From positions 1 to 64,000 of IMG/VR virus record IMGVR_UViG_3300033273_000313: DNA of 64,000 nucleotides; one strand, 5' to 3'. Source of the DNA: a virus. Positions 26,825 to 64,000 of the stretch are shown here, in pieces; positions within the stretch are counted from its first letter, which is position 1, and each line of letters begins with the position of its first letter. The position numbers and the translations under genes were made by a program. Below the pieces are notes generated by a model. That model was not told the origin of the DNA, ran no database searches, and saw nothing but the letters and a program-made list of their open reading frames with translations.

Positions 26825-26825
26825 T

Positions 26826-28305: not shown

Positions 28306-28306
28306 C

Positions 28307-28510: not shown

Positions 28511-28523
28511 TTTTGGAGGTAGT

Positions 28524-29147: not shown

Positions 29148-29184
29148 CATTGAAGAAGAAGAACAACCCAGGGTTTAGCTAATT

Positions 29185-40803: not shown

Positions 40804-40804
40804 T

Positions 40805-44963: not shown

Positions 44964-44964
44964 A

Positions 44965-47636: not shown

Positions 47637-47637
47637 G

Positions 47638-47847: not shown

Positions 47848-48020
47848 AAAAATTTCCTGTGGTATATGACATGGATCCAAGTGATCCACATTATAAATCT
47901 AGAATCTTTGAAATTGAGGGAGACCAACCCCAAGAGATTACAGCAGATAAACCAATTCAGGTAAGAATTAACAACGGTCCTTGGATTAACGTTAGGCAGT
48001 CTGACCTAAATAACAAATAG
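47844..48020 (+). CDS. Small protein resembling the adhesin C-terminal cap
   Basis: From ATG 47844 it has 58 residues. Its end, ITADKPIQVRINNGPWINVR, resembles the last residues of adhesins A-C (VDKPDAQVNINGGGWQNARS). It may be a free-standing copy of that cap or a related fibre accessory. The earlier in-frame start at 47832 lies inside the previous gene. Confidence 0.6.
   Translation: MKKFPVVYDMDPSDPHYKSRIFEIEGDQPQEITADKPIQVRINNGPWINVRQSDLNNK
48005..48012 (+). promoter_or_regulatory. Possible late promoter box
   Basis: CTAAATAA lies 36 bases before the next large adhesin gene and overlaps the end of the preceding small gene. Confidence 0.4.
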
Positions 48021-48047
48021 AAATAGCACGTGATAGAGTAGTAATCC

Positions 48048-51000
48048 ATGCCATTTAGCAGTACCGCTGTAAACGTAAATCCTGGGGATAAAGTACAGGT
48101 ACGATATCCAACTCCAAGTACCTGGAATACTCAGGTTACTGTTAATGTACAAATTGGTACTGGATCTGACCCTGATGGTGTCACGTTTGGTACAAAAATT
48201 CCTGATGCACTACCAGACACCTTTAACTTTACTGATCAATCTGGATTTACTGGTGCTTTTAATGGAACCAACAGTAGTGGTGGCACTACAACTTTCCAAA
48301 GAAATACAACATATTATTCTGATGTAGTTGACCTAGCAAATTTCGAGATCCCTATTCCCGCTAGCGTCTCTGCTGTATCTAACGGTCCTAAGAATAGTAA
48401 TACAAATAATACGACAGCACAGTTTAGAATTTATAGGGATGGTGCTTTTGATTCTTGGAGAACATCTATTAGTGCTAATGTTGCTGATGGTACTGGTGGT
48501 CTACAACCTGGAGATAAAGTACAACTAAGAGTAACTGTTCCTGATTGGTATGTTACTAGCACTGTTGTGACATTCAATGTTGGTGATGAGACATTTGGTA
48601 CTAACATTAATCAATCATCTACATCATTCAGCAGAACGTGGGGTATTACAACTAGAGCACAAGATCAGGATATCAACCAGTTTACTTTTACTGATAGAGT
48701 AGACCAGAAGATTCCTGCTGATGGTGAAGCGGATTATTTTTATCAAAATATTCCCATCTCTGGTATTGATGGTGATGTTGTGCTTAGAGCATCCTCTACG
48801 AGTTCTGTAGATATCTCTGCTGACAATAGTAACTGGAGTTCATCTATTGGTGCTCAATTAGTTCTCGGTGATACTCTCTATACTAGAATTCGTAACGGTC
48901 CTAATTATACTCAAAAGAGGAGTGGTGCTGTAACTGTATTTGCTACTGGTGGTGATACTTATACTAGAGGTGGCAACAATTATGAGAATACTACTGCTGG
49001 TACATATGGATCTGGAAATTATCAAATAACACAGACTCTTGGTGATGTAGATGACGACTGGCAGTCGTGGACTGAGGTAGATAGATATCCAGATACTGCT
49101 AGTATTGCTCCTATCTTTACCTATGGAGCTAAACTAAACCTATCAGGAACAGCACCAACATCTGGATTCCTCCTCAATACACATTATGATGTTGCTGGTG
49201 GTAACGGAAACAGTATGAGGGTTATGGTAACCACCGATGGATTTGATAATTTAATTGTTAGTGATCCTGGTTACGGTTATAGTATTGGTGATACTGTAAC
49301 TATTACTGGTGGTGGTGGTGAAGTTTGTACTTTGACTGTCGCTGAATATGAAAAAGTTCTAGTATCTGCTGACGCTACACATAACAGAGCAGAACCAGAC
49401 TTTATGTATTTTGGTGATGTTACTATCACTGGTCTAGGTACAGAATATGCTAGTGGCACATATAATAATCTAGAGTCACCTTACACTAATCTAGCAAACA
49501 ACAATCCAACCACTGCTCAAAACCTAGTAGCATCATTGAACGGTCAAGGTGTTAAGATGACTGCTATCATCGATGGCACTGGTGGTTTTATTAGAAAGAA
49601 TAATACTGGTGCTTGGGTACAGCAACTAACAGTTGAAGAAGACGATATCATCAACATGAAGATTCGTGCTTCTAATGTTTATGAAAATAGTGTAACTGCT
49701 ACTGTTAGGCTACAAGGTCCTCCAGATGGTAACCCAGATATTGGTAACCCAACTGGTGGTCCATCAACACCAACTTATACAGAAATTACTCATTCTATTA
49801 CTCTTATTACGAGAGAGCAGAGAACAGTTCCTTATCCATTCCACGCTACTCCTGTCTTCTTGTCTGACCCAGGTGTAGAACAAATTGCTGAAGTGAAAAT
49901 AGATGGACTGGATGCTTCTACTACAGCAACAATTACTGGTGGTGTTGGTAGTCTCAGTGTAGACCAAGTTAACTGGGGATCTTCTGTTACTGTACTACCA
50001 TCAAATCAAATTCTATTTGTTAGACAGAATGCTTCTACAGTATCTGGTGGTTTAAAACAACTGTCATATAGAATTGGTAACACTGCTGATGTTATTGCTG
50101 GTAATGCTATCATTGATACGTTTAGAGTATATACTAGACAGTTCAACACTCTTGGTGATTTTATTACAGAGACTTGGTTTGGACAGGGATTCGTTGATTA
50201 CACAGAGTTTACTATCCCTGCTTTTGCTGCCACAGAATTCTATCTCTCACTAGTCGGTGCTGGTGGAGGAAATGGTGGTGGTGACGTACCAAATAGTACA
50301 GGTGGTCCTGGTGGTGCTGGTAATATCCTTAGAGTTCTTGTACAGATTCCTATTAGTGCTTGGCCAACTAATCAATTCGGCAATCCCGACTACAAACTAA
50401 GAATTTATCCTGCTGATGCTGGTGACGATGGTGATGATTATGTAGTTGGCAGCGGTGGTGGCTCTGGTGGTTTTGGTTATTGTTATGGTGGTGATGGTGG
50501 TGACGCTGGTCCTGGAGACGCCTCTGGTGGCGGCGGCGGTGGCGGTGGTGCCTCTGCTATTACACTCACCGATGGCACATTGATCGCCCTCGCTGGTGGT
50601 GGAGGCGGTGGTGGTGGCGCTGGTAACGATACTGCTACTCCGTTGTCTATTCAATATGGTAACCATAGTGGAAATGGCACAGTTCAAACTACCACGATTA
50701 ACCTAAATCTTCCTGGTGATGATGCTCCAGATAGAACTGGTCAGGGTGGTGGTCCTGGTGGTGGAGGTGGTGGCTATGATGGCACTGCTGGTACACTAAT
50801 TAATACCTACACAGAAAATAGCACCACTCTACAAACTGTTGATCTAGACTCTACTGGTGGTAATGGTGGTGGTGCTTTCTACAATGCCACGTACTGTACA
50901 CCGTTGTCAGCAGCACAAGTTAGTGGTCAAGGTGCTGCTGCTGGCGAAGAAGGTGCTATTTATGTCGAATACTCACAGCAAGACATCACACCCGACGCTT

Positions 51001-53789
51001 TCTCGTTTGATACTGTAGATGGCGCTACTGTACAGACAACATATTCCTCTAACTTAGAACAGATTACTGGCATTACAGGTGGTGTATCTGTAACAACTAA
51101 TTCTCCTGGTATTACATCTGCCGTGAGAGTATGTACTACTTCAAATCCCTCTAGTTGTGGAGCATACACAGCAGGCGTTACGGTCTTTAACAACCAATAT
51201 ATTCAAGTTCAAGCAACAACTGGTAACCAGTTCAATACTACATACACAACTGCTGTTACTGTTGGTGATACTACTTCTAACTTTGATATCAATGCTGGTC
51301 CACCACCTGATTCTGAACCAAATGGATTCTTCCTTGAGGATGTAACTGGCGCTTCTATTAGCACTCTTACCACAAGTGAAGAAGTTCAGATCTCTGGTAT
51401 TACTGTACCTGTAAGTATTACTGCTACTAATGGTGCTGAAATTAGTGTAGAAGGAAATGCTTGGGTCAGTGGTGCTACTGGTACTACCATTTCAAATGGA
51501 CAACAGTTCCGTGTCAGAATTACATCATCTGCTGACTTCACTGATACTGTAACCACAGAAATTACGGTTGGTACAGGAGATCCTGTTGAATGGAATGTTA
51601 CTACTGGTGCTGAAGCAGATAGCACACCTAATGGTTACTCTTGGTTGCCTGTTAACCCTGCTGATCTAGAGACTGAATATACTAGTAACACAAACTTGAT
51701 TCAAGGTCTTGATACTACTGTTGACTTCATTGTTGAGGCAGGTGCTGGTGACCAGGGTGCTAACACTGACCTAGCATACATTGTCAAGAATGGTGTAAAT
51801 CTAGGTGCTGGTGTTACACAGACAACAGTACAAAACTTTGATACTCTTGCCTTGAATTATACTACTAGTGATGTTATTGGTGAAGCAAGAGTCTTCAATA
51901 CAAAGATTGGTCTTGCTGGATCTACCGCTGGATATTATGAAAGAGAATGGAATGTAACTATTGGTGGTGCATTTGGTACAGATCCTAATGACTTCGCATT
52001 CGCTACCGTACTTGCTACTGGTCCTGGTGTAGTAACAACATCTGCCGAAACTATTACTATCAGTGGTCTATCTACAGGTATCAGTATTGGTCTTTATGCT
52101 ACGAATGGAGCATTGATCTCTATTAATGGTGGATCATTCCTCTCATATACTGTAGCATCTCAGGCAAACGTATCTAATGGAGATCAGTTCCAAGTACAGC
52201 TAACATCTTCTGCTATTGCTGGATTTACTAGAACAACATTTGTTACTGCTGGATCATTTACAACAGGATTCTCTGTTCAAACTCCTGCTGCTGTATCAGA
52301 TCCCCTAGAGAGTCAGTGGTATAGTTCTATCACACCATGTAAGTACATTGGTAATACATTCAGTGGTAATCAGATTAGAATCAACACTAAGTTTGATGGT
52401 CTGCCTGTTGGATCTATTATGCCTATATTCCAAGATGGCACTGAGTCTGACTCCTGGGGTACACTAGATGGCAAACCAGGATCTAGATTCCCGAGTTTCG
52501 TATATTGTGATGGTACATATTACGATCCAGCAGAGTATCCATTGCTATTTGAAGTGCTTGAGTATGAGTATGGTGCTAAGGTAGTAGGTAGTGCCACATA
52601 CTTTAGAGTTCCTGACCTTAGAAATAGATATGTCAAGGGCACTGGTGTTATTGATGGAACAGCTGCTTCTTCTCCTGGACTGACACCATCGTATCAACCA
52701 ACAAAACAAACTGGTTCTCCTGGTAATGCTGAACCTGGAGCATTTGGTGGTATGTGGTTTGTCGATAAGATTGCTGATCCTGGCACTGGTGAACTAGAAC
52801 AGGTAGAAACTCCTGCTACTGGACAACCAGCACAAAATTCTGAATTCTTTGGCATTGCTCAGGTAACTACTACTGGTTATAGTGATGTTACTGGACAGAT
52901 TGAATTCTTTACATCTGGTTCGACAACATGTCCTGTTGGATTAGATCCTGAGAAGGTCTATGATGTCCCACTACACTTCCACGAGTTGATCTCTGGTAAT
53001 TCTGACCCAGGTAAGTTCAAAGGTAAAGTTAACTGGGGTGGTACTGGTGGATATGGTATTGATGTTGTACCACCTAATGCTTCAAACCTAGGTTCTGGCA
53101 CTAATGCTACATTCACATCATCTGGTACATTCTCATTCAACCTATGGGGATATGCTCTAGAAGATTATGATCTAGATGCGGATAACCTACCTGGATCTAC
53201 TGGTTGTGATGAAAGTGGTTGGCACAATGGCAGCACTTCAAACTGGCCAAATGGTACTAACCCTGGATATCAGGGTATCCTGAATGCTGGTGCGTATGGT
53301 TCTGTTACTATCCAACAGTCTGGTATCACAGGTTCTGTGTATAATGAGATCAACTCTTATATTGACCTAGATAGTTCTCCATTCAGTGGAGAGACTGGTG
53401 CTTTTGGTGGTACTAACGCTCGTAAGTTCTTGTCTACGGTTGACATTCCAGATAAAGAGATCACTGTTAGTTCCTATAACCCAGTCAACAAACTGAAGCA
53501 CAATCACTATGTCTCACTGACTGCCCATAATGATGATGAAATTTATGGATATGGTAACAATGAGACTGGCGGTACACAGAGCTCAGCACTACAAGCTTTC
53601 TCTGGTGGTGCTAATTCCTCTGTTGATCTTGAGTTCTCTGCTCTAGATGTAGGTCTTCAGGTTCTCCCTGGTACGTTCACACTACAGCAAACTAAGCAGT
53701 TGATTCCTGTCCCCGAATTTGATCCACAAGATGAAGTACCACTGGTCACACCATATACGTGGACCAAGTGGATGATCAAAGCATTCTAA
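48048..53789 (+). CDS. Large adhesin with Gly-rich insert and C-terminal tail-collar domain
   Basis: The protein has 1913 residues. Repeated beta-sandwich units of the type NGxQFxVxxTS...F...VxVG occur near residues 1-60, 135-200, 1030-1090, 1110-1190 and 1340-1420. A Gly-rich domain like adhesins A and B spans about 740-915 (GGGGGGGGASAITLTDG). A tail collar domain starts near 1450 (LPVGSIMPIFQDG, FVYCDGTYYDPAEYPLLFEV, FRVPDLRNRYVKGTG). The C-terminus has His-containing tip motifs (DVPLHFHELISG, KLKHNHYVSLTAHN). It probably forms a host-binding fibre fused to its own collar tip. Confidence 0.78.
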   Translation: MPFSSTAVNVNPGDKVQVRYPTPSTWNTQVTVNVQIGTGSDPDGVTFGTKIPDALPDTFNFTDQSGFTGAFNGTNSSGGTTTFQRNTTYYSDVVDLANFEIPIPASVSAVSNGPKNSNTNNTTAQFRIYRDGAFDSWRTSISANVADGTGGLQPGDKVQLRVTVPDWYVTSTVVTFNVGDETFGTNINQSSTSFSRTWGITTRAQDQDINQFTFTDRVDQKIPADGEADYFYQNIPISGIDGDVVLRASSTSSVDISADNSNWSSSIGAQLVLGDTLYTRIRNGPNYTQKRSGAVTVFATGGDTYTRGGNNYENTTAGTYGSGNYQITQTLGDVDDDWQSWTEVDRYPDTASIAPIFTYGAKLNLSGTAPTSGFLLNTHYDVAGGNGNSMRVMVTTDGFDNLIVSDPGYGYSIGDTVTITGGGGEVCTLTVAEYEKVLVSADATHNRAEPDFMYFGDVTITGLGTEYASGTYNNLESPYTNLANNNPTTAQNLVASLNGQGVKMTAIIDGTGGFIRKNNTGAWVQQLTVEEDDIINMKIRASNVYENSVTATVRLQGPPDGNPDIGNPTGGPSTPTYTEITHSITLITREQRTVPYPFHATPVFLSDPGVEQIAEVKIDGLDASTTATITGGVGSLSVDQVNWGSSVTVLPSNQILFVRQNASTVSGGLKQLSYRIGNTADVIAGNAIIDTFRVYTRQFNTLGDFITETWFGQGFVDYTEFTIPAFAATEFYLSLVGAGGGNGGGDVPNSTGGPGGAGNILRVLVQIPISAWPTNQFGNPDYKLRIYPADAGDDGDDYVVGSGGGSGGFGYCYGGDGGDAGPGDASGGGGGGGGASAITLTDGTLIALAGGGGGGGGAGNDTATPLSIQYGNHSGNGTVQTTTINLNLPGDDAPDRTGQGGGPGGGGGGYDGTAGTLINTYTENSTTLQTVDLDSTGGNGGGAFYNATYCTPLSAAQVSGQGAAAGEEGAIYVEYSQQDITPDAFSFDTVDGATVQTTYSSNLEQITGITGGVSVTTNSPGITSAVRVCTTSNPSSCGAYTAGVTVFNNQYIQVQATTGNQFNTTYTTAVTVGDTTSNFDINAGPPPDSEPNGFFLEDVTGASISTLTTSEEVQISGITVPVSITATNGAEISVEGNAWVSGATGTTISNGQQFRVRITSSADFTDTVTTEITVGTGDPVEWNVTTGAEADSTPNGYSWLPVNPADLETEYTSNTNLIQGLDTTVDFIVEAGAGDQGANTDLAYIVKNGVNLGAGVTQTTVQNFDTLALNYTTSDVIGEARVFNTKIGLAGSTAGYYEREWNVTIGGAFGTDPNDFAFATVLATGPGVVTTSAETITISGLSTGISIGLYATNGALISINGGSFLSYTVASQANVSNGDQFQVQLTSSAIAGFTRTTFVTAGSFTTGFSVQTPAAVSDPLESQWYSSITPCKYIGNTFSGNQIRINTKFDGLPVGSIMPIFQDGTESDSWGTLDGKPGSRFPSFVYCDGTYYDPAEYPLLFEVLEYEYGAKVVGSATYFRVPDLRNRYVKGTGVIDGTAASSPGLTPSYQPTKQTGSPGNAEPGAFGGMWFVDKIADPGTGELEQVETPATGQPAQNSEFFGIAQVTTTGYSDVTGQIEFFTSGSTTCPVGLDPEKVYDVPLHFHELISGNSDPGKFKGKVNWGGTGGYGIDVVPPNASNLGSGTNATFTSSGTFSFNLWGYALEDYDLDADNLPGSTGCDESGWHNGSTSNWPNGTNPGYQGILNAGAYGSVTIQQSGITGSVYNEINSYIDLDSSPFSGETGAFGGTNARKFLSTVDIPDKEITVSSYNPVNKLKHNHYVSLTAHNDDEIYGYGNNETGGTQSSALQAFSGGANSSVDLEFSALDVGLQVLPGTFTLQQTKQLIPVPEFDPQDEVPLVTPYTWTKWMIKAF

Positions 53790-53800
53790 ATAGTAAATAA
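53786..53800 (+). promoter_or_regulatory. Late promoter boxes before tail-assembly gene
   Basis: CTAAATAG (53786-53793) and GTAAATAA (53793-53800) overlap, the second 16 bases before the next ATG. Either could serve as a late promoter. Confidence 0.45.
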
Positions 53801-53815
53801 AGCACCCTGATAGAG

Positions 53816-54748
53816 ATGGCGTTTAATCCAGACGATTTTCAATTTGAGAGAATCTTACCACCTGAAGAGAGGAAACCTATTCTTGAATGGGATGCTCTTC
53901 ATCGTCTAATGGTTGTACGTGTGAAGCAGGATGGTGAGTGGACATATCTTGCTACTAAATTGGAACCTACAATTAACACCAACCTTCATAACAATCTACC
54001 AGATGAGTGGTCTAACGAAAACGATAGAATTGTAAGTTTCTCAGTTTTTGAGAATGGTGAGCATATCTTTGAAAAAGAAAAGTTGAAATTTGACTTCTCT
54101 ACTAAAACTTCAAAATGGTTGAGATATGAAAAAAATGATCTTACCCTAGCTCAAGTAAAAGAACTATTTGATATTCTCAAGGCAGCACTAGCGGTACAGC
54201 AAGTTGATGCTGATGTAGTCAAGTCAAAAGCAATCATTGACATTGCTACCAGACGGGAATATCTCGTCAAGACTGATGAAGTCAAGAAAGCAACACTAGA
54301 TAAACTACTTCGTGCTTCTGATTGGACACAACTAGCAGATGCTACCGAAAAGTTTGATGGTGAACTAGCATTGTGGACTGCTTATAGAACATATCTACGT
54401 GAAAATATCAAAACTCCAGAAGATTTTGATGACATGCTAGATTATCTCATCTGGGATGAAGAATATAAATGGCCTATTGATCCATTCGCTTATCATGAAC
54501 TAGACCCAAATCATGAAACTGAGTATCTCTCTATCCCTGCTCATTTCAAGTTCAATGTTGTTGAGACGGGTGAATATGCTACTGAACAAATTGTTGGTGA
54601 GATCAAACAGTCTGCTATCCTTGCTAAACAAAGAGAAGCAGAAGGTGGTCTACCACTAGCAAAACAGATCTGGGACAAGATCAATCAGTACAGTCTAAAT
54701 GAAGGACTAACTGGTGCTGTTATTGAAAACCTAAACATCACGGACTGA
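53816..54748 (+). CDS. Virion protein with tail-assembly-chaperone-like domain
   Basis: The 310-residue protein contains RREYLVKTDEVKKATLDKLL followed by RASDWTQLADA and LWTAYRTYLREN (about 160-205). This matches the phage tail assembly chaperone pattern found after fibre genes. The N-terminal half is beta-rich (MAFNPDDFQFERILPPEERK). It follows the adhesin operon and may help fold or attach fibres. That function is inference. Confidence 0.7.
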   Translation: MAFNPDDFQFERILPPEERKPILEWDALHRLMVVRVKQDGEWTYLATKLEPTINTNLHNNLPDEWSNENDRIVSFSVFENGEHIFEKEKLKFDFSTKTSKWLRYEKNDLTLAQVKELFDILKAALAVQQVDADVVKSKAIIDIATRREYLVKTDEVKKATLDKLLRASDWTQLADATEKFDGELALWTAYRTYLRENIKTPEDFDDMLDYLIWDEEYKWPIDPFAYHELDPNHETEYLSIPAHFKFNVVETGEYATEQIVGEIKQSAILAKQREAEGGLPLAKQIWDKINQYSLNEGLTGAVIENLNITD

Positions 54749-54752
54749 TATT

Positions 54753-55136
54753 ATGTACGTTACCACAAGAAATTTTGTAGAGTGGATGAGGCACTACACA
54801 GAGGCAACACAATCAACCATTGTACTGTTGAGAACTGTTGGTCCTGATGGTGTAGATGATGCCACTAAAGCAAACCAGATCTATTCAGCATACTATTTGA
54901 ATATGCAGTCGGAGAACCCTGCTATCTTCGATAAACTATTGTACAATGAGTTTACATTTGTAGAGTTCAGTACAGAGGAGTCAGCAGATGAATTCTGTAG
55001 AGATAACTTCCCAGGAGTTAAACCAACCGACACTGATTATTTTATTCAATACGTTATTTTTAGTAATGGATTGTATGTACGAGGAAACGACGGCATGACT
55101 GGTCTACGAGAACCGAGACCACAGACACTGGAATAA
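54753..55136 (+). CDS. Hypothetical protein, 127 residues
   Basis: The protein begins MYVTTRNFVEWMRHYTEATQ and ends MTGLREPRPQTLE. It has an alpha/beta appearance (FTFVEFSTEESADEFCRDNF) and no recognised motif. It is the last gene before a strong terminator, so it ends the fibre transcription unit. Confidence 0.68.
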   Translation: MYVTTRNFVEWMRHYTEATQSTIVLLRTVGPDGVDDATKANQIYSAYYLNMQSENPAIFDKLLYNEFTFVEFSTEESADEFCRDNFPGVKPTDTDYFIQYVIFSNGLYVRGNDGMTGLREPRPQTLE

Positions 55137-55144
55137 CTGGCACA

Positions 55145-55168
55145 GGGGGTTGGCAGACCCCCTTTTTT
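55145..55168 (+). terminator. Intrinsic terminator after the fibre block
   Basis: GGGGGT/ACCCCC (55145-55150 and 55157-55162) with loop TGGCAG is followed by six T residues. It separates late fibre genes from the helicase operon. Confidence 0.92.
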
Positions 55169-55180
55169 ATGCCGTATAAT
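55150..55180 (+). promoter_or_regulatory. Possible sigma70-like promoter overlapping the terminator
   Basis: TTGGCA (55150-55155) covers the terminator loop, and a perfect TATAAT lies at 55175-55180. The spacer is 19 bases, longer than ideal. It would transcribe the helicase operon starting at 55206. Confidence 0.5.
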
Positions 55181-55205
55181 AATCTCATCATCAGCAAGGC
55201 AACCG

Positions 55206-56453
55206 ATGCTCACCCTCCGTCCTCACCAGCAGCGTGCTCTTGCTGCTCTTGAGAACAACACTCACGGTCAAGTCATTGTCCCCACTGGTGGTGGCAAGAC
55301 TCTCATTATGATCAAGGATGCTCAGCGTCGTCTGACTGCTGCTGCCACCCCACAGACTATTGTAGTGGTCGCCCCACGTATTCTGCTGGCAAACCAGCTC
55401 TGTGATGAGTTCTGGAGTGCCTTCAATGGTGATGTCGATGCTGAGTTCTTCCACGTTCACAGTGGTGAGACTTCCTTTGGTAGCAGCACCAAGGTTCAGA
55501 AGATCCAGTGTCACGATGCTGTCTGTAAGACTGCTGGTCTTCACCAAGTTATCTTCACCACCTACAATTCTCTCCGTCGTATTGTAGAGGCAGGCATTGA
55601 CATTGACTGTATCTATTACGATGAGGCACACAACTCTGTCCGTCGTGACTTCTTTGAGTCTGTGCTCAACGTTGATGCCAAGTCTTACTATTTCTTCACT
55701 GCCACTCCTAAGCACACTCGTTCTGCTTATGGTCGTGGCATGAACAACAGCATGGTTTACGGTCCTATTCTTGAGTCTGTTCCTGCTCCCGAGCTTGTCA
55801 ACAACGGCAGCATTCTTGCTCCTGAAGTTATCTCTTATGAGGTTGATATCGAACGAGTCAAGGGTAAGTTCTCTTACGAATCTGACAAGGACACTCTCAC
55901 CAATCTCATCAACGACATTGATGCTGATGGTAACAAGATCCTGGTCGCTGCTCCTAGCAGCAAGATCATGTTCAACCTGTTGTCCAAGACTAATGTCCTT
56001 GACTTCTTCCATGACAAGGGTTATGATGTCCTTCACATCACCAGTAAGTATGGTGCTTTTGTGAACAAGACCAAGGTCAACCGTGAGCAGTTCTTCGACA
56101 CCTTCAATGCTTGGGGCAAAGATCCAAACCGTAAGTTTGTGATCTTCCACTACAGCATCTTGTCCGAAGGCATCAACGTCCACGGTCTAACACACACTGT
56201 GTTCCTCCGTCAACTGGATGTCATCCAGATGGCACAGACTGTCGGTCGTGTCATTCGTCTTAACAAAGACGACGCTGCTGACATTGCTTGTGGTAAAATT
56301 ACCCCAGGCAAGTTCGAGATGTACCGTAAGTCCACTGGCAAGGTCATTGTCCCTGTCTTCAAGAACTACGGTGCTCCTACCATCAAACGCCTTCAAAACC
56401 TTGTCGATACCATCTTCGTCAAGGGTCTCCCCGCTGTTTCTGTCACTGTCTAA
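55206..56453 (+). CDS. Superfamily 2 DEAH-type helicase
   Basis: The 415-residue protein has a Q-like motif (LRPHQQRAL), Walker A VPTGGGKT (residues 25-32), motif II YDEAHN (about 138-143), motif III FTATP and motif VI QTVGRVIR (about 346-353). The two-lobed core is complete, with no extra domain, so it is shorter than T4 UvsW (about 500). It could be a UvsW-like branch-migration helicase or the motor of a nuclease complex with the next gene. The stop overlaps the HNH start (TAATG). Confidence 0.88.
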   Translation: MLTLRPHQQRALAALENNTHGQVIVPTGGGKTLIMIKDAQRRLTAAATPQTIVVVAPRILLANQLCDEFWSAFNGDVDAEFFHVHSGETSFGSSTKVQKIQCHDAVCKTAGLHQVIFTTYNSLRRIVEAGIDIDCIYYDEAHNSVRRDFFESVLNVDAKSYYFFTATPKHTRSAYGRGMNNSMVYGPILESVPAPELVNNGSILAPEVISYEVDIERVKGKFSYESDKDTLTNLINDIDADGNKILVAAPSSKIMFNLLSKTNVLDFFHDKGYDVLHITSKYGAFVNKTKVNREQFFDTFNAWGKDPNRKFVIFHYSILSEGINVHGLTHTVFLRQLDVIQMAQTVGRVIRLNKDDAADIACGKITPGKFEMYRKSTGKVIVPVFKNYGAPTIKRLQNLVDTIFVKGLPAVSVTV

Positions 56454-57448
56454 TGGAAAGCATCACACGTGTCATCGGTAATCAGATCCTTGACTGGGAA
56501 CAATGTCAGGGTCTGATTAACAACAAACGAAACCTGCTTATGGGACGCCAGGTAGTACGTGACGCCGTTATGGTTCGTGACGTATCATGGGAAGAAGCAG
56601 AAGACTTCTACAACAATCTCTCCACACCTGATCGTGCCATGGTACGTAAGTCAGGGCAGCAAGGTGTATGTGGAGAGGGTGAGAATACATTGGGTTGGTA
56701 TGATCCAGAGACTGATAGTCTCACCAAGAATCCTACTCATGGTCGTGGCATTCTGATCTGTCAGCTATATCTTAACCAAGGTGGACGCTGTGCTTACACT
56801 CACACTGGTCCTTACAACATTCTGGACTTTCAGGTAGAGCACATCATTGCCAATGGTGGCGATCATCCTGACAACTGGTTCCTGGTGGTGTACAACGTCA
56901 ATGAGAATCGTAAGCAGTCTCGTATGACCAAGTTCATCAATCGTTGGGAGAAACGTGCTGCCAACGGTCAGGAAGAGTTTGAGAAGTGGTACACTGACCT
57001 CAAAAAAGCAGCAGACAAGGGTCAACGTGCCAAGGTTACTATTCTTTCTATGGAAGAAGATGATCTATGTGACTACCTTGACATCTGTCCTGCCAAGTAT
57101 GAGAAGTATATGTGGAGAAACATTGGCATGTCATCTCTACAACCATTCCGATTGACAAAGGCAGGTGTAGCACGTCCTGGTGGTAGTCAGGGTAACTACA
57201 AAGAGGTTCTTAACACTGTACTCAATGAGTATCTACGTGGTGACAAAGAACTAGCACGTCAGATCTACCGTACTGTACGTATTGGTGCTGCCAAGTATGT
57301 CAATGGTGAGATCAACAACACTGACTATGTGGAGATCATGTGTGAAATGATCGAGTTGTCAAATCACCAGGCAGTGAAGTATAATAGAGAAAAGTTTACC
57401 GCTAAAGTCCTCCGTAACACCTATTCATGGCCCCATCTCAAAAAGTAA
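56453..57448 (+). CDS. HNH endonuclease
   Basis: The 331-residue protein has an HNH core at about residues 108-155: GGRCAYTHTGP, FQVEHIIANGGDHPDN and NVNENRKQ. The conserved EHI, N and HxxDN elements are visible; zinc-binding cysteine pairs are not. The flanking N-terminal (about 100 residues) and C-terminal (about 170) domains are unrecognised. It is coupled to the helicase by TAATG and overlaps the methylase by 22 bases. It could be a homing-type or restriction-type nuclease. Confidence 0.85.
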   Translation: MESITRVIGNQILDWEQCQGLINNKRNLLMGRQVVRDAVMVRDVSWEEAEDFYNNLSTPDRAMVRKSGQQGVCGEGENTLGWYDPETDSLTKNPTHGRGILICQLYLNQGGRCAYTHTGPYNILDFQVEHIIANGGDHPDNWFLVVYNVNENRKQSRMTKFINRWEKRAANGQEEFEKWYTDLKKAADKGQRAKVTILSMEEDDLCDYLDICPAKYEKYMWRNIGMSSLQPFRLTKAGVARPGGSQGNYKEVLNTVLNEYLRGDKELARQIYRTVRIGAAKYVNGEINNTDYVEIMCEMIELSNHQAVKYNREKFTAKVLRNTYSWPHLKK

Positions 57449-58269
57449 CCAATCATTCTCTCTACCGCTATGCTGGTGGCAAGAATAGGATGAAGAAGGA
57501 TCTTATCAAGATTATTCGTGATGTCAACCCTGGCATCGAATATCTTGTGTCTCCCTTCTGGGGTGGTGGCAGCACCGAGATGCTGATCGCCAGTGAGGGA
57601 GTCAAGGTCCAAGGGTATGACATTTTCAGACCCCTGGCAGACTTCTGGGAGATTGTGTGTGGTGAAGGTGGTGCTGCTATCCTTGCCGACATGGCAGAGC
57701 AGCACTATCCCTTAGTTGATAGCGATCACTACAAAACGTTCCTCCCAGGGTTAGATAGTGAGGATAAGTGGGAGCGAGCACTGTCATTTTACATTGCAAT
57801 CAAGGGTTCGTACTCAGGTAAGATCGGATGTTCTACCGTTCGTAGTAGAGCAGAGTTCAGACTTGTGGGAATTGATAAACTTAGGAATTTTCATGCTCCC
57901 AACGTGTCGTTTGCCTATGGCAGTTGCTTCGACACCATCCCAGCACACCAAAATGACTTCTTATACCTGGACCCACCATATTATGAGACTGTGAGTCATT
58001 ACTATGGCAAAGATGGTGCCCTACATAAATCATTCGACCACGAGAAGTTCTGTGATGCCTTGAAGCAACATAAAGGTGGGTTTGTGATGTCTTATGACAA
58101 CAGCGATGCTGTTCGATCACTGTATCACGGGTGGACCGAGTTTAGATATCTAACATTCCCTTATCAAATGTCTGGCACTAAGCGTTATGAAAAGACAGAA
58201 CTAGTTATTGTTAAATACCCTGAGAAGGTGAAACCAAAGGCAGGAGTATTGGAGGCATTCTTAGCATGA
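57427..58269 (+). CDS. dam: D12-class N6-adenine DNA methyltransferase
   Basis: The 280-residue protein has the Dam pattern: YRYAGGKNR near residues 13-21, the SAM-binding SPFWGGGSTE (about 41-50), and the catalytic DPPY (about 182-185, FLYLDPPYYE). The C-terminal RYEKTELVIVKYP is also typical. It would methylate adenine in a short DNA site, GATC if Dam-like, but specificity cannot be read. The helicase-HNH-methylase order suggests a linked modification and cleavage function. Confidence 0.9.
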   Translation: MAPSQKVTNHSLYRYAGGKNRMKKDLIKIIRDVNPGIEYLVSPFWGGGSTEMLIASEGVKVQGYDIFRPLADFWEIVCGEGGAAILADMAEQHYPLVDSDHYKTFLPGLDSEDKWERALSFYIAIKGSYSGKIGCSTVRSRAEFRLVGIDKLRNFHAPNVSFAYGSCFDTIPAHQNDFLYLDPPYYETVSHYYGKDGALHKSFDHEKFCDALKQHKGGFVMSYDNSDAVRSLYHGWTEFRYLTFPYQMSGTKRYEKTELVIVKYPEKVKPKAGVLEAFLA

Positions 58270-58904
58270 ACGTAACCAAGCACACAAAGTATATTTGGCA
58301 GATCGATAACTTTCTGCCTGATGATGAGATTAATTATTTCCTCAATGCTGTGGGATTCTATAATCCTACACTGAAGGCAGACTTCAGGAATGATAGGAGA
58401 GAGAATGACACATATGATCTCACTGATATTGCTGAGTTAGATGGTATAGCATGGAACTGGGTGAGACAAGCAAATCAATATTATGTCACCAACAATGATT
58501 TCATATTCTACAACTGGGAACAAGATGTGTTGTTCAGTGACAATACTGTGTGGCGTGGACAAAACATCCTGAGGCAGTATAATGAGACTGACTCATACGA
58601 TTGGCACGCGGATCAGTCACCAGCAAACCATGCTGAGTTCTCTTACATCATCTATCTAAATGATGATTTTGATGGTGGTGATACTAGGTTTATGAACCCT
58701 AGAGTATCAGTTAAACCTAAGAAAGGATCTGTACTATGCTTCCCCGTTGATCATTATCACATTCATAAAGCTATGAAAGTAACCAATGGTACTAAGAAGA
58801 TTCTATGGAACTGTGTGTATCGTAATGAGATTAAAGTTGTTGCTGAACAACCATACTTGACAGCAATCAACGCCCCACGATCATCAACGAGGTGTATATG
58901 GTAG
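58266..58904 (+). CDS. 2OG-Fe(II) oxygenase-like protein (3 of 5)
   Basis: The 212-residue protein has SYDWHADQSP (His-x-Asp), YLNDDFDGGDTRFMNP, and a distal His in DHYHIHKAMK. The usual 2OG-binding Arg position reads KKILWNCVYR. The fold matches prolyl-4-hydroxylase-like phage enzymes. It starts at an ATGA overlap with the methylase gene, so a role linked to DNA modification is possible but unproven. Confidence 0.82.
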   Translation: MNVTKHTKYIWQIDNFLPDDEINYFLNAVGFYNPTLKADFRNDRRENDTYDLTDIAELDGIAWNWVRQANQYYVTNNDFIFYNWEQDVLFSDNTVWRGQNILRQYNETDSYDWHADQSPANHAEFSYIIYLNDDFDGGDTRFMNPRVSVKPKKGSVLCFPVDHYHIHKAMKVTNGTKKILWNCVYRNEIKVVAEQPYLTAINAPRSSTRCIW

Positions 58905-59128
58905 AGTCATACTATCTAACGTTATTCACGTTAACAGCGGTCATTGTAGCACTCATGGCAATGGATGCTAATGTAGCAGCATGGATTGATCTACAGTTCC
59001 GCTGGTTTGTAGTACGACTCAAACGACGATGGTATATTATTACTATTGGTACAATGGTTAAGTTTCAAACATGGAAAATGAAACGAGAGTTCAAACGTAT
59101 TAGACGAGAGCACGGATTAGATGACTGA
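58898..59128 (+). CDS. Small membrane protein with basic tail
   Basis: From ATG 58898 it has 76 residues. An N-terminal helix (LTLFTLTAVIVALMAMDANV) is followed by a strongly basic region (FVVRLKRRWYI, KMKREFKRIRREHGLDD). It overlaps both neighbouring oxygenase genes by a few bases. The function is unknown. Confidence 0.68.
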   Translation: MVESYYLTLFTLTAVIVALMAMDANVAAWIDLQFRWFVVRLKRRWYIITIGTMVKFQTWKMKREFKRIRREHGLDD

Positions 59129-59663
59129 CTTACTACATTATGCTGAGGTTGAGAACATCTTCACACCAGAACAGTGTGAGGAATACATCAGGATACTCAA
59201 CCAATGTCATTGGAAAGGACACACATGGTATCAGAATGCTGAGAGCAAGTTTCATGAAATAAAAGATTTTGATGTCACATATGATGCTGAAGTACAGAGC
59301 AAGATGAGAAAACCAGTGATGGAAATGCTTGCCAGATATTATGTCAAGCATCGTCCTGGTGGTGATGTTGACTGTGAGTTCTCTGGTGTACGCTTCAACA
59401 AATATAATGAAGGACAATCTATCCGTAAGCATGTAGACCATATTCATAGTCTATTTGATGGTAAAAAGCGTGGTATTCCAGTCATTAGTTTCGTTGGTGT
59501 GTTCAATGATGACTACGAGGGTGGTGATTTTATTCTATGTGGTGAGAAGATGGAACTAAAACAGGGAGATTGTATTATATTTCCCTCTGTCTTCATGTAT
59601 GAGCATGAAGTGACCACTGTTACGAAAGGCACACGATACTCATGGGTCTTATGGTCATGGTGA
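59121..59663 (+). CDS. 2OG-Fe(II) oxygenase-like protein (4 of 5)
   Basis: The 180-residue protein has IRKHVDHIHS (His-x-Asp), FNDDYEGGDFILCGEKMELK, and a distal His in MYEHEVTTV. Arg in GTRYSWVLW should bind 2-oxoglutarate. All core residues are present. It overlaps the preceding membrane protein gene by eight bases. The substrate is unknown. Confidence 0.84.
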   Translation: MTDLLHYAEVENIFTPEQCEEYIRILNQCHWKGHTWYQNAESKFHEIKDFDVTYDAEVQSKMRKPVMEMLARYYVKHRPGGDVDCEFSGVRFNKYNEGQSIRKHVDHIHSLFDGKKRGIPVISFVGVFNDDYEGGDFILCGEKMELKQGDCIIFPSVFMYEHEVTTVTKGTRYSWVLWSW

Positions 59664-59699
59664 TTAGATATGGTATACTACAAGAGTTCGGAGATTAAA

Positions 59700-59969
59700 A
59701 TGACTATTGAAGGACGACCTGAATTTCAAGGGTCAAATGAGTATTGGAAGGCAGAGTATGCCCAGCAACGTAGAGACAGGATGCAAGATGCCATCGATGA
59801 TTATCTTCAAGACGAAGATGTAACAGCACGACGAGCATACGAGGAAATGCTGTTTTGTGTCAATGATGTCATCAAGTATCATAAAAACAATCTTAAGAAA
59901 GCTGAAGAATTGAGGGATCTGATGTTAGGATATCGAAACATCGACCTAAATCTTCCAGAGAGGTATTAA
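59700..59969 (+). CDS. Conserved hypothetical protein, 89 residues
   Basis: The start at 59700 has a GGAG site at ideal spacing; ATG 59670 would add ten residues. It begins MTIEGRPEFQGSNEYWKAEY and is helical and charged (CVNDVIKYHKNNLKKAEELR). Similar short proteins occur in cyanomyoviruses, as I recall. The function is unknown. Confidence 0.68.
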   Translation: MTIEGRPEFQGSNEYWKAEYAQQRRDRMQDAIDDYLQDEDVTARRAYEEMLFCVNDVIKYHKNNLKKAEELRDLMLGYRNIDLNLPERY

Positions 59970-59973
59970 ACTA

Positions 59974-60174
59974 ATGTTTGAATTCGAGTCCCTGCCCGAT
60001 GGATTAAAAGAAGCACTAGCAGAAGATTGTGAAGATTATCTCAATCACCGACACATTCCACTCCATTCACACTCGTATGATAAAATTATTATCCAGGCTC
60101 TCCGTGAAGGATACCAAATGTCTGGATTTGACCGTGGACCCTACTCATCTATTAAAAATGCCTCGCTCGATTGA
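59974..60174 (+). CDS. Small hypothetical protein, 66 residues
   Basis: It begins MFEFESLPDGLKEALAEDCE and contains a His-rich segment (NHRHIPLHSHSYD). It lies four bases after the previous stop and overlaps the next gene by 17 bases. No family is recognised. Confidence 0.6.
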   Translation: MFEFESLPDGLKEALAEDCEDYLNHRHIPLHSHSYDKIIIQALREGYQMSGFDRGPYSSIKNASLD

Positions 60175-60337
60175 TCTCACACTAGACGAAAACGAACTGA
60201 AGTTCCTCATCAATTTGATGTGGTCTACAGATACACATAAGACTAAGACTATGGCAGACCAGCACGACATTATAGACGAGGCGCTCGAAGGACGGTTGGT
60301 CAAGTGTCTAGGTTACTGTGCCCTACAGGATGACTGA
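60158..60337 (+). CDS. Small conserved hypothetical protein, 59 residues
   Basis: I chose ATG 60158; the open frame to 60029 lies wholly inside the previous gene. The sequence starts MPRSIDLTLDENELKFLINL and is helical, ending YCALQDD. After it, 60338-60420 holds no clear gene, although a 34-residue frame (60330-60434) overlaps both neighbours. Confidence 0.6.
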   Translation: MPRSIDLTLDENELKFLINLMWSTDTHKTKTMADQHDIIDEALEGRLVKCLGYCALQDD

Positions 60338-60420
60338 CCTGCTACAATGTAGATTGTTAAGCAAAGACAAATTCAAGAAAATAACTATACTAAGTAGTAT
60401 GGTTGTATTTCGACAGACCT

Positions 60421-60564
60421 ATGACAGATTCTGAAAAGGCAATGGTTGATGAAATGAGTGAGCTTATCAAGGATCAAAACGAAAGGATCCGTGGATATGA
60501 AACGTATATTGAAGAGTTACAACGACAGATGGCAGACATGACCAACAGAGTGTATGATTGTTAA
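60421..60564 (+). CDS. Small coiled-coil protein, 47 residues
   Basis: The ORF begins MTDSEKAMVDEMSELIKDQN and continues with a heptad-like pattern (YETYIEELQRQMADMTNRVY). It fits between its neighbours. A TATACT at 60392-60397 could be a -10 element, but no good -35 is seen. The function is unknown. Confidence 0.5.
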   Translation: MTDSEKAMVDEMSELIKDQNERIRGYETYIEELQRQMADMTNRVYDC

Positions 60565-60636
60565 TGAACACCCCGCTTGAGTTTTATTATGGTTGCTCCA
60601 ATGCCTGAAACAGTTCAACACACCGAGGAAACCGAA

Positions 60637-60834
60637 ATGTATCCCGTAGGCACGGAAGTAATCTACAAAGGAGAGAGAGGCACAGTCAAGTTTTGTGACC
60701 CAGCAACAGGTACGTGTAGTATCTGTGTTAGAGTATTCCCTGACGATCCAGCACGTAATGTGTGCTTGATTGTCTACAAGCATGACCTAGATCATGTGAC
60801 CCCTGTTATTGGAAACCACTCCCGAGGTAATTGA
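60637..60834 (+). CDS. Small SH3/KOW-like protein
   Basis: From ATG 60637, behind GAGGA, it has 65 residues; starts at 60589 or 60601 are possible but lack a ribosome site. YPVGTEVIYKGERGTVKFCD looks like an SH3-like barrel of the KOW type. Its TGA overlaps the next ATG. The function is unknown. Confidence 0.62.
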   Translation: MYPVGTEVIYKGERGTVKFCDPATGTCSICVRVFPDDPARNVCLIVYKHDLDHVTPVIGNHSRGN

Positions 60835-60989
60835 TGAAGTACGCTGTTGTGTACATGAAACAAAAGAAGAAGAAACTTGTTATGGAGCAAGCAGTGTTCT
60901 ATAATCTTGAAGACGCTGCCATGTGGGAGCAGCACATCAACAAAACCCAACACCTTAAGACTGAAATTATTCCTGTATTTGAAGCATGA
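60834..60989 (+). CDS. Small conserved protein, 51 residues
   Basis: The ORF starts at a TGATG overlap and ends at an ATGA overlap, so it is coupled to both neighbours. It begins MKYAVVYMKQKKKKLVMEQA and continues FYNLEDAAMWEQHINKTQHL. I recall very similar short proteins in cyanophages. The function is unknown. Confidence 0.65.
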   Translation: MKYAVVYMKQKKKKLVMEQAVFYNLEDAAMWEQHINKTQHLKTEIIPVFEA

Positions 60990-61114
60990 ACGAATTTGAA
61001 GGCGACATCTTTGGCGATTATCAACTCCGAGAGAGTATTATTCGAGAAATTAGTGAACAAGAATTGTGGGAGACGCCTGAGACCCTACCAGAAGACCTTC
61101 TAGAGGACTTCTGA
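60986..61114 (+). CDS. Small acidic protein, 42 residues
   Basis: It begins MNEFEGDIFGDYQLRESIIR and ends PEDLLEDF. It is highly acidic and starts at an ATGA overlap. A strongly acidic small protein can mimic DNA, but nothing specific supports that here. Confidence 0.5.
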   Translation: MNEFEGDIFGDYQLRESIIREISEQELWETPETLPEDLLEDF

Positions 61115-61141
61115 GGCAACCACCATACGAAGTGTCACACA

Positions 61142-61179
61142 ACCCCTCAGGACGCCCTCCTGGGGGGTTATACTATATT
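61142..61179 (+). promoter_or_regulatory. Hairpin followed by -10-like hexamers
   Basis: ACCCCTCAGGA pairs with TCCTGGGGGGT (61142-61152 and 61158-61168, one G-T pair). No T run follows. TATACT (61169-61174) and TATATT (61174-61179) lie directly after it; no good -35 is visible. It may end the upstream RNA and start the next. Confidence 0.45.
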
Positions 61180-61212
61180 CATACCAAACGAGGCAACCAT
61201 GGGCTGCTGATT

Positions 61213-61362
61213 ATGTTTACTAAAGAAGATCACGAATTCATTGACATGCTGTTCAGCAAACTTACGTGTCTCAAGACCATGGATGTTGACATGATCGACC
61301 TCCATGATGACGATGCTGCTGGTGCTGACGCTATCGAGTGGACAAAACTAGAACTGTCATGA
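61213..61362 (+). CDS. Small acidic protein, 49 residues
   Basis: I chose ATG 61213 (MFTKEDHEFIDMLFSKLTCL), the first ATG after the hairpin and -10-like hexamers. The GTG-opened longer frame would read through the hairpin. The stop overlaps the next start (ATGA). The function is unknown. Confidence 0.5.
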   Translation: MFTKEDHEFIDMLFSKLTCLKTMDVDMIDLHDDDAAGADAIEWTKLELS

Positions 61363-61820
61363 TCTCCCTCCCCAACCCCACCAAGACCCTTTATACTGAA
61401 CTCAGTTCAGACAACGACATGACCACCGCTTCCTTCGCTGACTACGTGGCAACTCAAGACGCTCGTAACCAGATCCAACTCAACGTCCGCAAATACACTC
61501 TCATGCTCTGTGACGCCCTGGAGCAGAACTTCAAGGATCGTAACCACGGCAAGATTGGTCGTTATGATGCTCCTGTCTACAAGTTCGTAATCGAGTCTGG
61601 TCGTAAGTACCACAAGATCATCATGGAGGTTCCCAACCACAATCGTCCTCCCTCTCGTAGCGTCCACGCTTTCGTGGACAAGAAGACTGGTGAAGTTTAC
61701 AAACCAGCATCTTTCAAAGCACCTGCTAAGGGTGTTCGTTTCAACCTGCTCGTTATCAAAGAACGTGAATGGTTGCTCCAGCACGCTGACTGGGCAGGTG
61801 GTTACCTCTACAAGCGTTGA
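61359..61820 (+). CDS. Conserved cyanophage protein, 153 residues
   Basis: The start at 61359 makes an ATGA junction; ATG 61419 (MTTASFADYVATQDARNQIQ) is a plausible shorter start. The body includes LNVRKYTLMLCDALEQNFKD and SRSVHAFVDKKTGEVYKPAS, then WAGGYLYKR at the end. It is well conserved among cyanophages as I recall, without a known function. GC-richer codons, as in gp32, suggest strong expression. Confidence 0.72.
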   Translation: MISLPNPTKTLYTELSSDNDMTTASFADYVATQDARNQIQLNVRKYTLMLCDALEQNFKDRNHGKIGRYDAPVYKFVIESGRKYHKIIMEVPNHNRPPSRSVHAFVDKKTGEVYKPASFKAPAKGVRFNLLVIKEREWLLQHADWAGGYLYKR

Positions 61821-61822
61821 GG

Positions 61823-61851
61823 TTGACAGCAGACGCTTTGTCTGCTAAATT
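61823..61851 (+). promoter_or_regulatory. Sigma70-like promoter with hairpin in the spacer
   Basis: TTGACA (61823-61828) is the perfect -35. After 17 bases comes TAAATT (61846-61851), a 4/6 -10, with TATTAT and TATAGT just beyond. The spacer is an exact hairpin AGCAGAC/GTCTGCT (61828-61834 and 61840-61846). It precedes the operon starting at 61883. Confidence 0.55.
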
Positions 61852-61882
61852 ATTATAGTACACAAATTCTTCTTTCAAAGCA

Positions 61883-62104
61883 ATGGACTCCGAACTGATG
61901 TATGTTGTCGTCAATGGTGAAGCCATTATGATGGAACATGGTCAACTTGTTACGTATCTCGTTGACGAAGACGATGGTACTATTGACTGGACTAGTCAAG
62001 ACACTGTAGATTGGGAAGATATGCTGCCCAATGAGTACAAAATGTACAAAGCAGCAGTTGACTTCATCCAGACGTACACCTTTGACAATGTTTACACCAA
62101 ATGA
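61883..62104 (+). CDS. Small acidic protein, 73 residues
   Basis: It begins MDSELMYVVVNGEAIMMEHG and is acidic in the middle (LVDEDDGTIDWTSQDTVDWE). It is the first gene after the promoter at 61823 and is coupled to the next by ATGA. The function is unknown. Confidence 0.65.
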   Translation: MDSELMYVVVNGEAIMMEHGQLVTYLVDEDDGTIDWTSQDTVDWEDMLPNEYKMYKAAVDFIQTYTFDNVYTK

Positions 62105-62328
62105 AGAAGTTATCTTACATTTCTGATCTGTTCGCTCCCATCGATTATGATGCCACACCAGTACGTGTTTGCCCACGTGCTGATCTTGAACCCGAACAAG
62201 TAAATAAGTTCTGGAGATACCACGGTCGCTTCCCAAATGACTTCGCCCGTGCTATTGTAGAGATCCTGCCAGAGGGTAAGACCTTTGTCAGTTACGATCA
62301 CCTTGCTAACTCGCTTGTAATCAAATGA
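62101..62328 (+). CDS. Small hypothetical protein, 75 residues
   Basis: It begins MKKLSYISDLFAPIDYDATP and contains NKFWRYHGRFPNDFARAIVE. It has ATGA junctions on both sides, marking it as a middle gene of a coupled operon. No family is recognised. Confidence 0.65.
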   Translation: MKKLSYISDLFAPIDYDATPVRVCPRADLEPEQVNKFWRYHGRFPNDFARAIVEILPEGKTFVSYDHLANSLVIK

Positions 62329-62549
62329 ATCCACTTCAACAAGAGCAACAGTCTGTGTCCTACCAAGTTGACACCATCATGGCAAATCGTAATCGCCGCT
62401 TCAAGTGGTTGATGAAGAAAGATCGTGTTCAAGATGCTATCGCTGTTGGTGAGGAGTTCATGGAGTGGATGATGCTCGACCAAGATGATTGTGATGAGGA
62501 AATCCTGTATTTCCGTATTGATGATATTGATGATTTCTTGGAAGCATGA
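62325..62549 (+). CDS. Small hypothetical protein, 74 residues
   Basis: The N-terminal half is basic (MANRNRRFKWLMKKDRVQDA) and the C-terminal half is acidic (LDQDDCDEEILYFRIDDIDD). It is joined by ATGA overlaps to the genes before and after. The function is unknown. Confidence 0.65.
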   Translation: MNPLQQEQQSVSYQVDTIMANRNRRFKWLMKKDRVQDAIAVGEEFMEWMMLDQDDCDEEILYFRIDDIDDFLEA

Positions 62550-63160
62550 AGAAGCATCAAACTATCATTGAACCCAAGTCATGGGCAATCTATGATTCAC
62601 AACTCCCCACGGAGTTGTGTGATGCTATCATCAATCACTTTGCTGATCTTAATCAAGAAGTAGGGACAGCACATGCTCATAAAGGACATCGTAGGTGTGG
62701 TTTGACGTGGACCAATCCAGACACCTGGATTGGTCCATTTTTGTGGAAGTATATACAACAGACTAATGATCGTGTGTTTCAGTATGACATTACTGACACA
62801 CATATGACTGAGATACATCAACTTGAGTATCGCCCTGGTCATTACTATCATTGGCACGTTGATGATAATATCAGTAACATGATTCAGTATGCTCCGCCAC
62901 CATTTGGAGTGGCTAGGCAGAACATCACGGAGTATGTACGGAAACTATCATTCTCACTACAACTTACTGATCCTAGTGAGTATACTGGTGGTGATGTACA
63001 AATCATTGATGATACAGGTGGCAGAGGTATGCTCACTATTCCAAAGGAACGTGGCACTCTGTGTATATTTGACTCTAGAACAAGACATAGAGTTAAACCA
63101 GTCAAGACAGGCAAACGATTTGTGTTGGTTGGTTGGGTATTAGGACCACGTTGGAAGTAA
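62546..63160 (+). CDS. 2OG-Fe(II) oxygenase-like protein (5 of 5)
   Basis: The 204-residue protein has YYHWHVDDNISN (His-x-Asp), TDPSEYTGGDVQIIDD, a distal His in SRTRHRVKPV, and Arg in GKRFVLVGWVLGP. All core residues are present. The pattern is close to PiuC/prolyl-4-hydroxylase-like enzymes of cyanophages. The substrate is unknown. It is coupled to the upstream small genes by ATGA. Confidence 0.85.
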   Translation: MKKHQTIIEPKSWAIYDSQLPTELCDAIINHFADLNQEVGTAHAHKGHRRCGLTWTNPDTWIGPFLWKYIQQTNDRVFQYDITDTHMTEIHQLEYRPGHYYHWHVDDNISNMIQYAPPPFGVARQNITEYVRKLSFSLQLTDPSEYTGGDVQIIDDTGGRGMLTIPKERGTLCIFDSRTRHRVKPVKTGKRFVLVGWVLGPRWK

Positions 63161-63163
63161 CCT

Positions 63164-63841
63164 ATGAAAAACTATGTAATTGGATTGCTCACTGCTCTAT
63201 CACTGGGCACAGCACATGTAGCACTCGCTAATGAGGATAAGATCACCAAAGGTTTCTATAGTATGGATGCCATGGGATGTATGTTACTCCGTGAGTGTAC
63301 AGATGGTGTGGATGAAGTATTCTCTCTGCTTGACATCTCCTCAGAATATGATGACCCAGAGCGTTACACACCAGTAGCACTGGAGTTTAATCGTATGCTG
63401 GCAGCAATGAATGCTGTTGGTAGCAAAGTGTTCCTTGCTGATGAGAAGTATTTCCCCAAGAATCACCGTGGTGTGTACCACACTGTGAGTAACAACATCT
63501 ATCTCAACAGGAGACACATGGATCAACCTCATTATCTAATGAGTGTAATGAGACATGAAGGATGGCATGCAGCACAGGATTGTATGGCAGGTAGTATTAA
63601 AAACTCACTCATTGCTATCATACATAATGAGGAGGATGTTCCTATGATCTGGCGTACACTAGCAGAGCGTACATATCCAGCGAGTGCTGTACCTTGGGAA
63701 GCAGAAGCAGGGTGGGCAGGTAGAACTGAAGGCATGACAATGAAAGCACTAGAATCATGTGCTCGTGGCACAATGTGGACAGATTATGAATTGACACCAC
63801 TCACACGTAAATGGTTAGTTGAAGAGGGTTATATTGACTGA
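63164..63841 (+). CDS. Secreted HExxH metallopeptidase-like protein
   Basis: The 225-residue protein begins with a clear signal peptide (MKNYVIGLLTALSLGTAHVA, cleavage near ALA-NE). The mature part has the zinc motif HEGWH (residues 131-135) within RHEGWHAAQDC. A possible third ligand Glu lies in PWEAEAGWAGR (about 178-184). Several cysteines could form disulphides. It would act in the host periplasm or outside. Its stop overlaps the next start (TGATG). The exact peptidase family is not identified. Confidence 0.72.
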   Translation: MKNYVIGLLTALSLGTAHVALANEDKITKGFYSMDAMGCMLLRECTDGVDEVFSLLDISSEYDDPERYTPVALEFNRMLAAMNAVGSKVFLADEKYFPKNHRGVYHTVSNNIYLNRRHMDQPHYLMSVMRHEGWHAAQDCMAGSIKNSLIAIIHNEEDVPMIWRTLAERTYPASAVPWEAEAGWAGRTEGMTMKALESCARGTMWTDYELTPLTRKWLVEEGYID

Positions 63842-64000
63842 TGTACTACGATACTGTTCACTGCTCCTATGATCTAGGACCTGGATTCTGGGGACACAAC
63901 TTACATACAAAAGAACTATCTCAGACATGTGGGTGCTATTGGATCAGTCCAGCAGGTGAATTGTTTGAAGTAGATTACACTGGTACACAGGTATTCACTG
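63841..64000 (+). CDS. Small conserved cyanophage protein (partial, 3' end outside window)
   Basis: The gene starts at a TGATG overlap with the metallopeptidase and runs off the window after 53 codons. The visible part begins MYYDTVHCSYDLGPGFWGHN and includes YWISPAGELFEVDYTG. I recall short proteins of this kind in cyanomyoviruses; the function is unknown. Confidence 0.65.
   Translation, partial: MYYDTVHCSYDLGPGFWGHNLHTKELSQTCGCYWISPAGELFEVDYTGTQVFT

Follow-up and report, generated by a model that had tools for sequence, protein, structure and literature searches.

Complete restriction-modification (R-M) pairs are unusual on virulent-type phages. Among viruses, chloroviruses carry adjacent nuclease and methylase genes with short sites, and their nucleases are believed to break down the DNA of the host once the virus has entered (PMC7019647). 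More generally, orthodox Type II R-M systems, built from a separate nuclease and methylase, are the type that causes site avoidance in carriers (PMC4687349). Here we examine a related arrangement in a 64,000-nt window, part of the 66-kb IMG/VR virus record IMGVR_UViG_3300033273_000313, whose relatives are T4-like cyanomyoviruses. On the plus strand of this window, a gene for a putative HNH nuclease (56453..57448) overlaps the gene for a D12-class amino-methyltransferase (57427..58269) by 22 bases. On balance, our data lean toward a phage-borne Type II-like R-M pair in which these are the restriction and modification components, with a target that includes YGCR (Y, pyrimidine; R, purine; that is, TGCA, CGCG and CGCA/TGCG); the pair probably attacks the DNA of the host or of rivals. 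The evidence is all sequence-based and comes chiefly from fragments of uncultured viruses.

The chlorovirus Type II enzymes (CviJI and relatives) provide a precedent for a phage-borne pair because their genes are adjacent, their sites short and sometimes degenerate (PuGCPy-type for CviJI) and their nucleases thought to degrade host DNA, although they belong to viruses of eukaryotic algae. Bacterial bba-Me Type II enzymes (e.g. Hpy99I; PMC6083498) likewise place a bba-Me-type nuclease beside a methylase, whereas the window HNH protein has no family match to known restriction enzymes and is carried by a T4-like phage. Among cyanophages, a 552-amino acid (aa) protein of S-TIM5, named "virion structural protein and packaging", has a homologous HNH core (28%) and adjoins a DNA methylase. 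However, it is longer, with an N-terminal extension, its partner is an opposite-strand C5-cytosine methylase, and the S-TIM5 genome does not avoid YGCR. Since it is named a virion structural protein, this distant HNH protein might be packaged. The same head-to-head arrangement with a methylase of this other class is found in S-TIM54 and related contigs, and long HNH proteins so placed were seen at L054:3323-4981 (S-TIM5), L082 and L083.

In its proposed outcome, with host DNA destroyed and phage DNA spared, the pair would resemble T4 host-DNA degradation by denA, denB and ndd. T4 tells its own DNA from that of the host by modified cytosine, whereas discrimination here would rest on purged and methylated sites.

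The overlapping HNH and methylase genes

The first-pass annotation compared the nuclease and methylase of this cluster to the parts of an R-M system, a resemblance that our comparisons strengthen. Scans of IMG/VR with the HNH protein and with the methylase returned largely identical loci. All uncultured HNH contigs with room keep the order helicase-HNH-methylase, with HNH/methylase overlaps of ~16-34 bases, and in none of them was the HNH gene found without the methylase. The gene order is real, being far above chance and found again in ~36 other viral contigs. Separate nuclease and methylase genes thus stand side by side as in Type II systems, including in L113, an unrelated phage with other neighbours, where the HNH gene lies directly 5' of the methylase gene. 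We found no description of the HNH-methylase pair in the open-licence literature searched.

The HNH protein (331 aa) has no Pfam, NCBIfam or PADLOC match and only weak PHROG matches, to phrog_3561 and an endonuclease VII family. Its HNH core spans residues 113-154 (56789..56914, plus strand), within which H130, N141 and N150 are invariant across 20 homologues. The structural model of this protein (predicted local distance difference test [pLDDT] 85.6) aligned with NmeCas9 and Gme HNH over 82-94 residues (VIA-align Z 4.7), and Foldseek of the model against the PDB gave nothing significant (E>1). The methylase (280 aa) matches Pfam MethyltransfD12 (2.1e-14) and, in PADLOC, generic Type II and orphan methylases; its DPPY catalytic motif (57970..57981, plus strand) is invariant in 20 homologues. 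Both enzymes therefore retain intact catalytic motifs (H130/N141/N150 and DPPY), as a Type II system requires, and both are under purifying selection, with median ratios of nonsynonymous to synonymous substitutions (dN/dS) of 0.21 (HNH) and 0.10 (methylase). An inter-motif stretch, SGKIGCST..SRAE, is common to the methylases of the HNH carriers and to those of L113 and L132; in viruses without YGCR avoidance the methylases differ there (SGDLGHTSESSRKN). The near-complete genome G001 encodes a second, canonical Dam-like protein beside a clamp-loader gene, and in G009 the HNH-linked methylase is the sole such methylase. Two pattern scans of bacterial genome contigs yielded no confirmed relative; plasmids yielded no HNH relative and, among the matches listed, methylases at only 26-34% identity.

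HNH is the fastest-evolving of these genes, with a mean pairwise identity of 56% versus 72% for the helicase and 83% for the methylase. In L011 and L017 the helicases are 93% and the methylases 99% identical while the HNH proteins share 47%; in L042 and L044 the corresponding values are 91%, 95% and 26%. Nucleotide identity drops at the HNH start and returns at the methylase start, which shows that exchange replaced precisely the HNH gene as a unit and left the methylase fixed. Across these swaps, between alleles 26-47% identical within near-identical flanks, the YGCR footprint is unchanged. The helicase tree requires three or more shifts of HNH state. A further allele (L038:5168-6028, also L072) has lost ~46 residues in frame, among them the conserved GMSSL...GGSQGNY block; the methylase still follows it and YGCR is still scarce.

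Genome-wide avoidance of YGCR

In the motif census of the window, TGCA was observed 23 times against 336 expected, and YGCR as a whole occurs at 41 sites among 2219 GC dinucleotides (1..64000; observed/expected [o/e] ratio 0.08). The words depleted across contigs, TGCA, CGCG and CGCA/TGCG, together make up YGCR. The o/e ratio was 0.04-0.21 in 25 of 25 HNH carriers and 0.57-0.88 in all 37 helicase-bearing relatives that lack HNH, counts that overstate independence since many contigs are near copies, and that describe the comparison sets returned by the scans. When 100 degenerate palindromic tetramers were compared, carriers and non-carriers were split by YGCR and its member TGCA and by no other. 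The data that support the motif are also those from which it was derived, but the window alone gave the first sign of it.

The difference holds within single water samples. HNH carriers and HNH-less relatives had ratios of 0.07 (L010) versus 0.69 (L185, L150) in sample 9124, 0.11 (L006) versus 0.70 (L207) in 21368, 0.11 (L013) versus 0.57 (L190) in 21373, and 0.04 (L081) versus 0.72 (L115) in 8113. Codon choice does not explain the deficit, because five window genes hold six YGCR sites versus 52 +/- 4.6 under synonymous-codon shuffling. At each of the three changes in HNH status along the helicase tree, YGCR changes too, and the ratio in the unrelated phage L113 is 0.21. This YGCR footprint tied to the pair is a new finding of the present analysis.

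Carriers thus avoid a specific site, as Type II carriers do, and we infer that YGCR is the recognition site, that the HNH protein cuts there and that the methylase shares that site. Since orthodox Type II systems cause site avoidance in their carriers, a Type II-like pair with YGCR specificity would be the simplest account. The nuclease would cut YGCR wherever it is unprotected in the DNA of the host or of a competing phage, while the phage would be spared through the purging of most of its own YGCR sites and the guarding of residual ones by the methylase. The resident helicase may unwind or feed DNA, but the pair would not require it.

Other words were discounted as targets of the pair. GATC is not clearly avoided in the window (338 observed versus 381 expected), so there is no sign of Dam-type self-restriction, and AGCT and CCGG depletion is common to HNH-less cyanophages. 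Separately, several HNH-less cyanomyoviruses (L199-L207, L214, L216, L220 and the isolates L001, L002 and L104) strongly avoid RGCY (AGCT, GGCC, AGCC), in many cases lacking a single site over 10-17 kb, and have no nuclease adjoining the helicase. The L113 contig (G013) shows a second strong avoidance beside that of YGCR, with no GGCC against 153 expected in 48 kb.

The helicase, the oxygenase and the slot behind the helicase

The cluster had been read as a four-gene operon in which a DEAH helicase and an oxygenase belong to the system. Its gene coordinates and joints are exact: the superfamily 2 (SF2) DEAH-type helicase gene (55206..56453; 415 aa; Walker A motif PTGGGKT at ~55281-55301) meets the HNH gene in a TAATG junction, and the gene for a 2-oxoglutarate (2OG)-Fe(II) oxygenase (58266..58904; 212 aa) overlaps the methylase gene at an ATGA, all on the plus strand. 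The two flanking proteins match Pfam ResIII/DEAD/Helicase_C (1.7e-19) and 2OG-FeII_Oxy_3 (3.3e-13), respectively. An intrinsic-terminator-like hairpin (55144..55163, plus strand; an 8-bp stem followed by a T run) separates the cluster from the upstream tail genes. Of the promoter-like element ascribed to the cluster, there is a lone TATAAT-like element at ~55175, and our scan returned no sigma-70 pair upstream of the helicase.

Membership of the helicase and oxygenase did not survive comparison. The helicase belongs to the cyanomyovirus family T4-GC36 ("Helicase" of S-PM2), with more than 300 phage records, and is listed among the signature genes of cyanomyoviruses (PMC2984593). In Syn1, S-PM2, Sf-FP1, S-CAM3, S-MbCM7 and S-SZBM1 it occurs without an adjoining HNH or methylase gene, the unlinked carriage that the first-pass annotation had named as evidence against a linked system. 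Conversely, L113 has the HNH-methylase pair without the helicase. The oxygenase is lost or substituted in several carrier contigs and so falls outside the module. Given a helicase found alone, a pair found without it and a variable oxygenase, these genes do not form one operon-system. Judged by gene content, HNH and methylase make up the actual unit and there is no four-part system; the helicase is a resident cyanophage gene flanking the pair and the oxygenase a variable neighbour. A second 2OG-Fe(II) oxygenase is encoded just downstream (59121-59663), and expansion of 2OG genes is common among cyanophages.

The other objection foreseen, orthology of the helicase to the replication helicase UvsW, can be rejected. 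The window helicase shares 21% identity over 359 aa with T4 UvsW, and complete relatives encode both a helicase 57-65% identical to that of the window and a separate protein 32-34% identical to T4 UvsW over ~500 aa. By these identities the window helicase is a paralogue of UvsW rather than an orthologue.

In another virus lineage the same helicase gene is followed, at 0-4 bases, by a gene for a 170-174-aa protein with a PD-(D/E)xK-like motif (PGxDLI...TYESK; L118:4204-4716 and related loci L135-L160), often with a D12 or N6_N4 methylase gene next. Since this unrelated protein fills the slot behind the same helicase, a looser link between helicase and nuclease could exist, although at pLDDT 49.5 the AlphaFold model of the 170-aa protein cannot establish that it is a nuclease. 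L159 and L160 have broken versions of the slot protein, and L159 avoids RGCY only weakly. ParB-like proteins (phrog_27790) stand beside D12 methylases, replacing or accompanying the nuclease, in L118 (4782-5828), L120, L128 and L132. In L119 (2866-5993) and L148 (5703-8957), a second SF2-helicase-like protein (761-766 aa) and a 286-294-aa protein are encoded behind the helicase; in L119 both stand before a D12 methylase.

Alternative explanations and implications

Several observations weigh against a pair that restricts at YGCR. The contig L132 carries the window-type methylase and no HNH gene in a 56-kb fragment, yet its YGCR ratio is 0.29, with mostly CGCA/TGCG depleted, so YGCR avoidance could go with the methylase or with some selective agent common to these phages. 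HNH-less relatives shun RGCY equally strongly, so strong avoidance can arise otherwise. The independent changes of HNH state number just three, below what significance needs. An N6-adenine methylase could not protect CGCG, since that word holds no adenine, and R-M nucleases are not usually swapped independently of their methylases unless all the alleles share a specificity. The main rival draws on some of the same facts: hosts may possess a YGCR-specific restriction enzyme, with an orphan methylase and loss of sites as the phage response and the HNH gene an unrelated passenger. Site avoidance is a common phage counter-strategy (PMC6286503), L132 combines methylase and YGCR avoidance without HNH, and the RGCY-avoiding cyanophages have no visible nuclease of their own. 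We nevertheless think such anti-restriction unlikely, as the HNH gene always came with the methylase, was paired even in L113 and, in its distant form, with a C5 methylase, and HNH-less relatives from the same water samples do not avoid YGCR.

The precise replacement of whole HNH alleles between conserved flanking genes, as in L011/L017 and L042/L044, could instead reflect a free-standing homing endonuclease moving between the helicase and methylase genes, with the methylase a separate protection and the YGCR footprint unrelated. Homing endonuclease genes do lie between conserved genes in T4-like phages and cyanophages, and the borders of exchange are marked by nuclease genes (PMC6083498, PMC10448857). 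Homing accounts for the allele exchange, but not for the obligatory methylase or for the footprint, which it does not predict. A homing gene should be optional on its own between conserved neighbours; in the contigs seen, HNH is gained and lost only jointly with the methylase, no helicase-methylase frame with an empty HNH site was found among contigs of this methylase clade, and the L113 locus has different flanks. We consider this explanation improbable. Still more doubtful, to the point of being a long shot, is the three-part motor-driven restriction proposed in the first-pass annotation, in which the helicase would translocate and deliver an exchangeable nuclease while the methylase protects self DNA. 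The succession of HNH or the PD-(D/E)xK-like protein behind one helicase, often with a methylase after, is what such a system might look like. However, the helicase is not an obligatory partner as far as genomic linkage tells, as it would be in motor-dependent (Type I/III/ISP-like) systems, and orthodox Type II systems typically lead to site avoidance, which Types I and III rarely do (PMC4687349).

If the Type II-like reading holds, a YGCR-purged phage with a nuclease-methylase pair offers a concrete enzyme with a predicted site, for which a single assay would suffice as a test. The genome-wide footprint would also provide a general means of spotting phage-borne nucleases and predicting their sites from metagenomes. 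More tentatively, T4-like cyanophages may possess exchangeable attack nuclease modules, HNH here and perhaps the PD-(D/E)xK protein elsewhere, and tetranucleotide holes such as YGCR and RGCY might report the specificity of a phage nuclease used to break down the host's DNA. The genes denA, denB and ndd are missing from cyanomyoviruses, and a review suggested that they may have an undescribed route to host DNA degradation (PMC2984593); modules of this kind, if real, would supply it.

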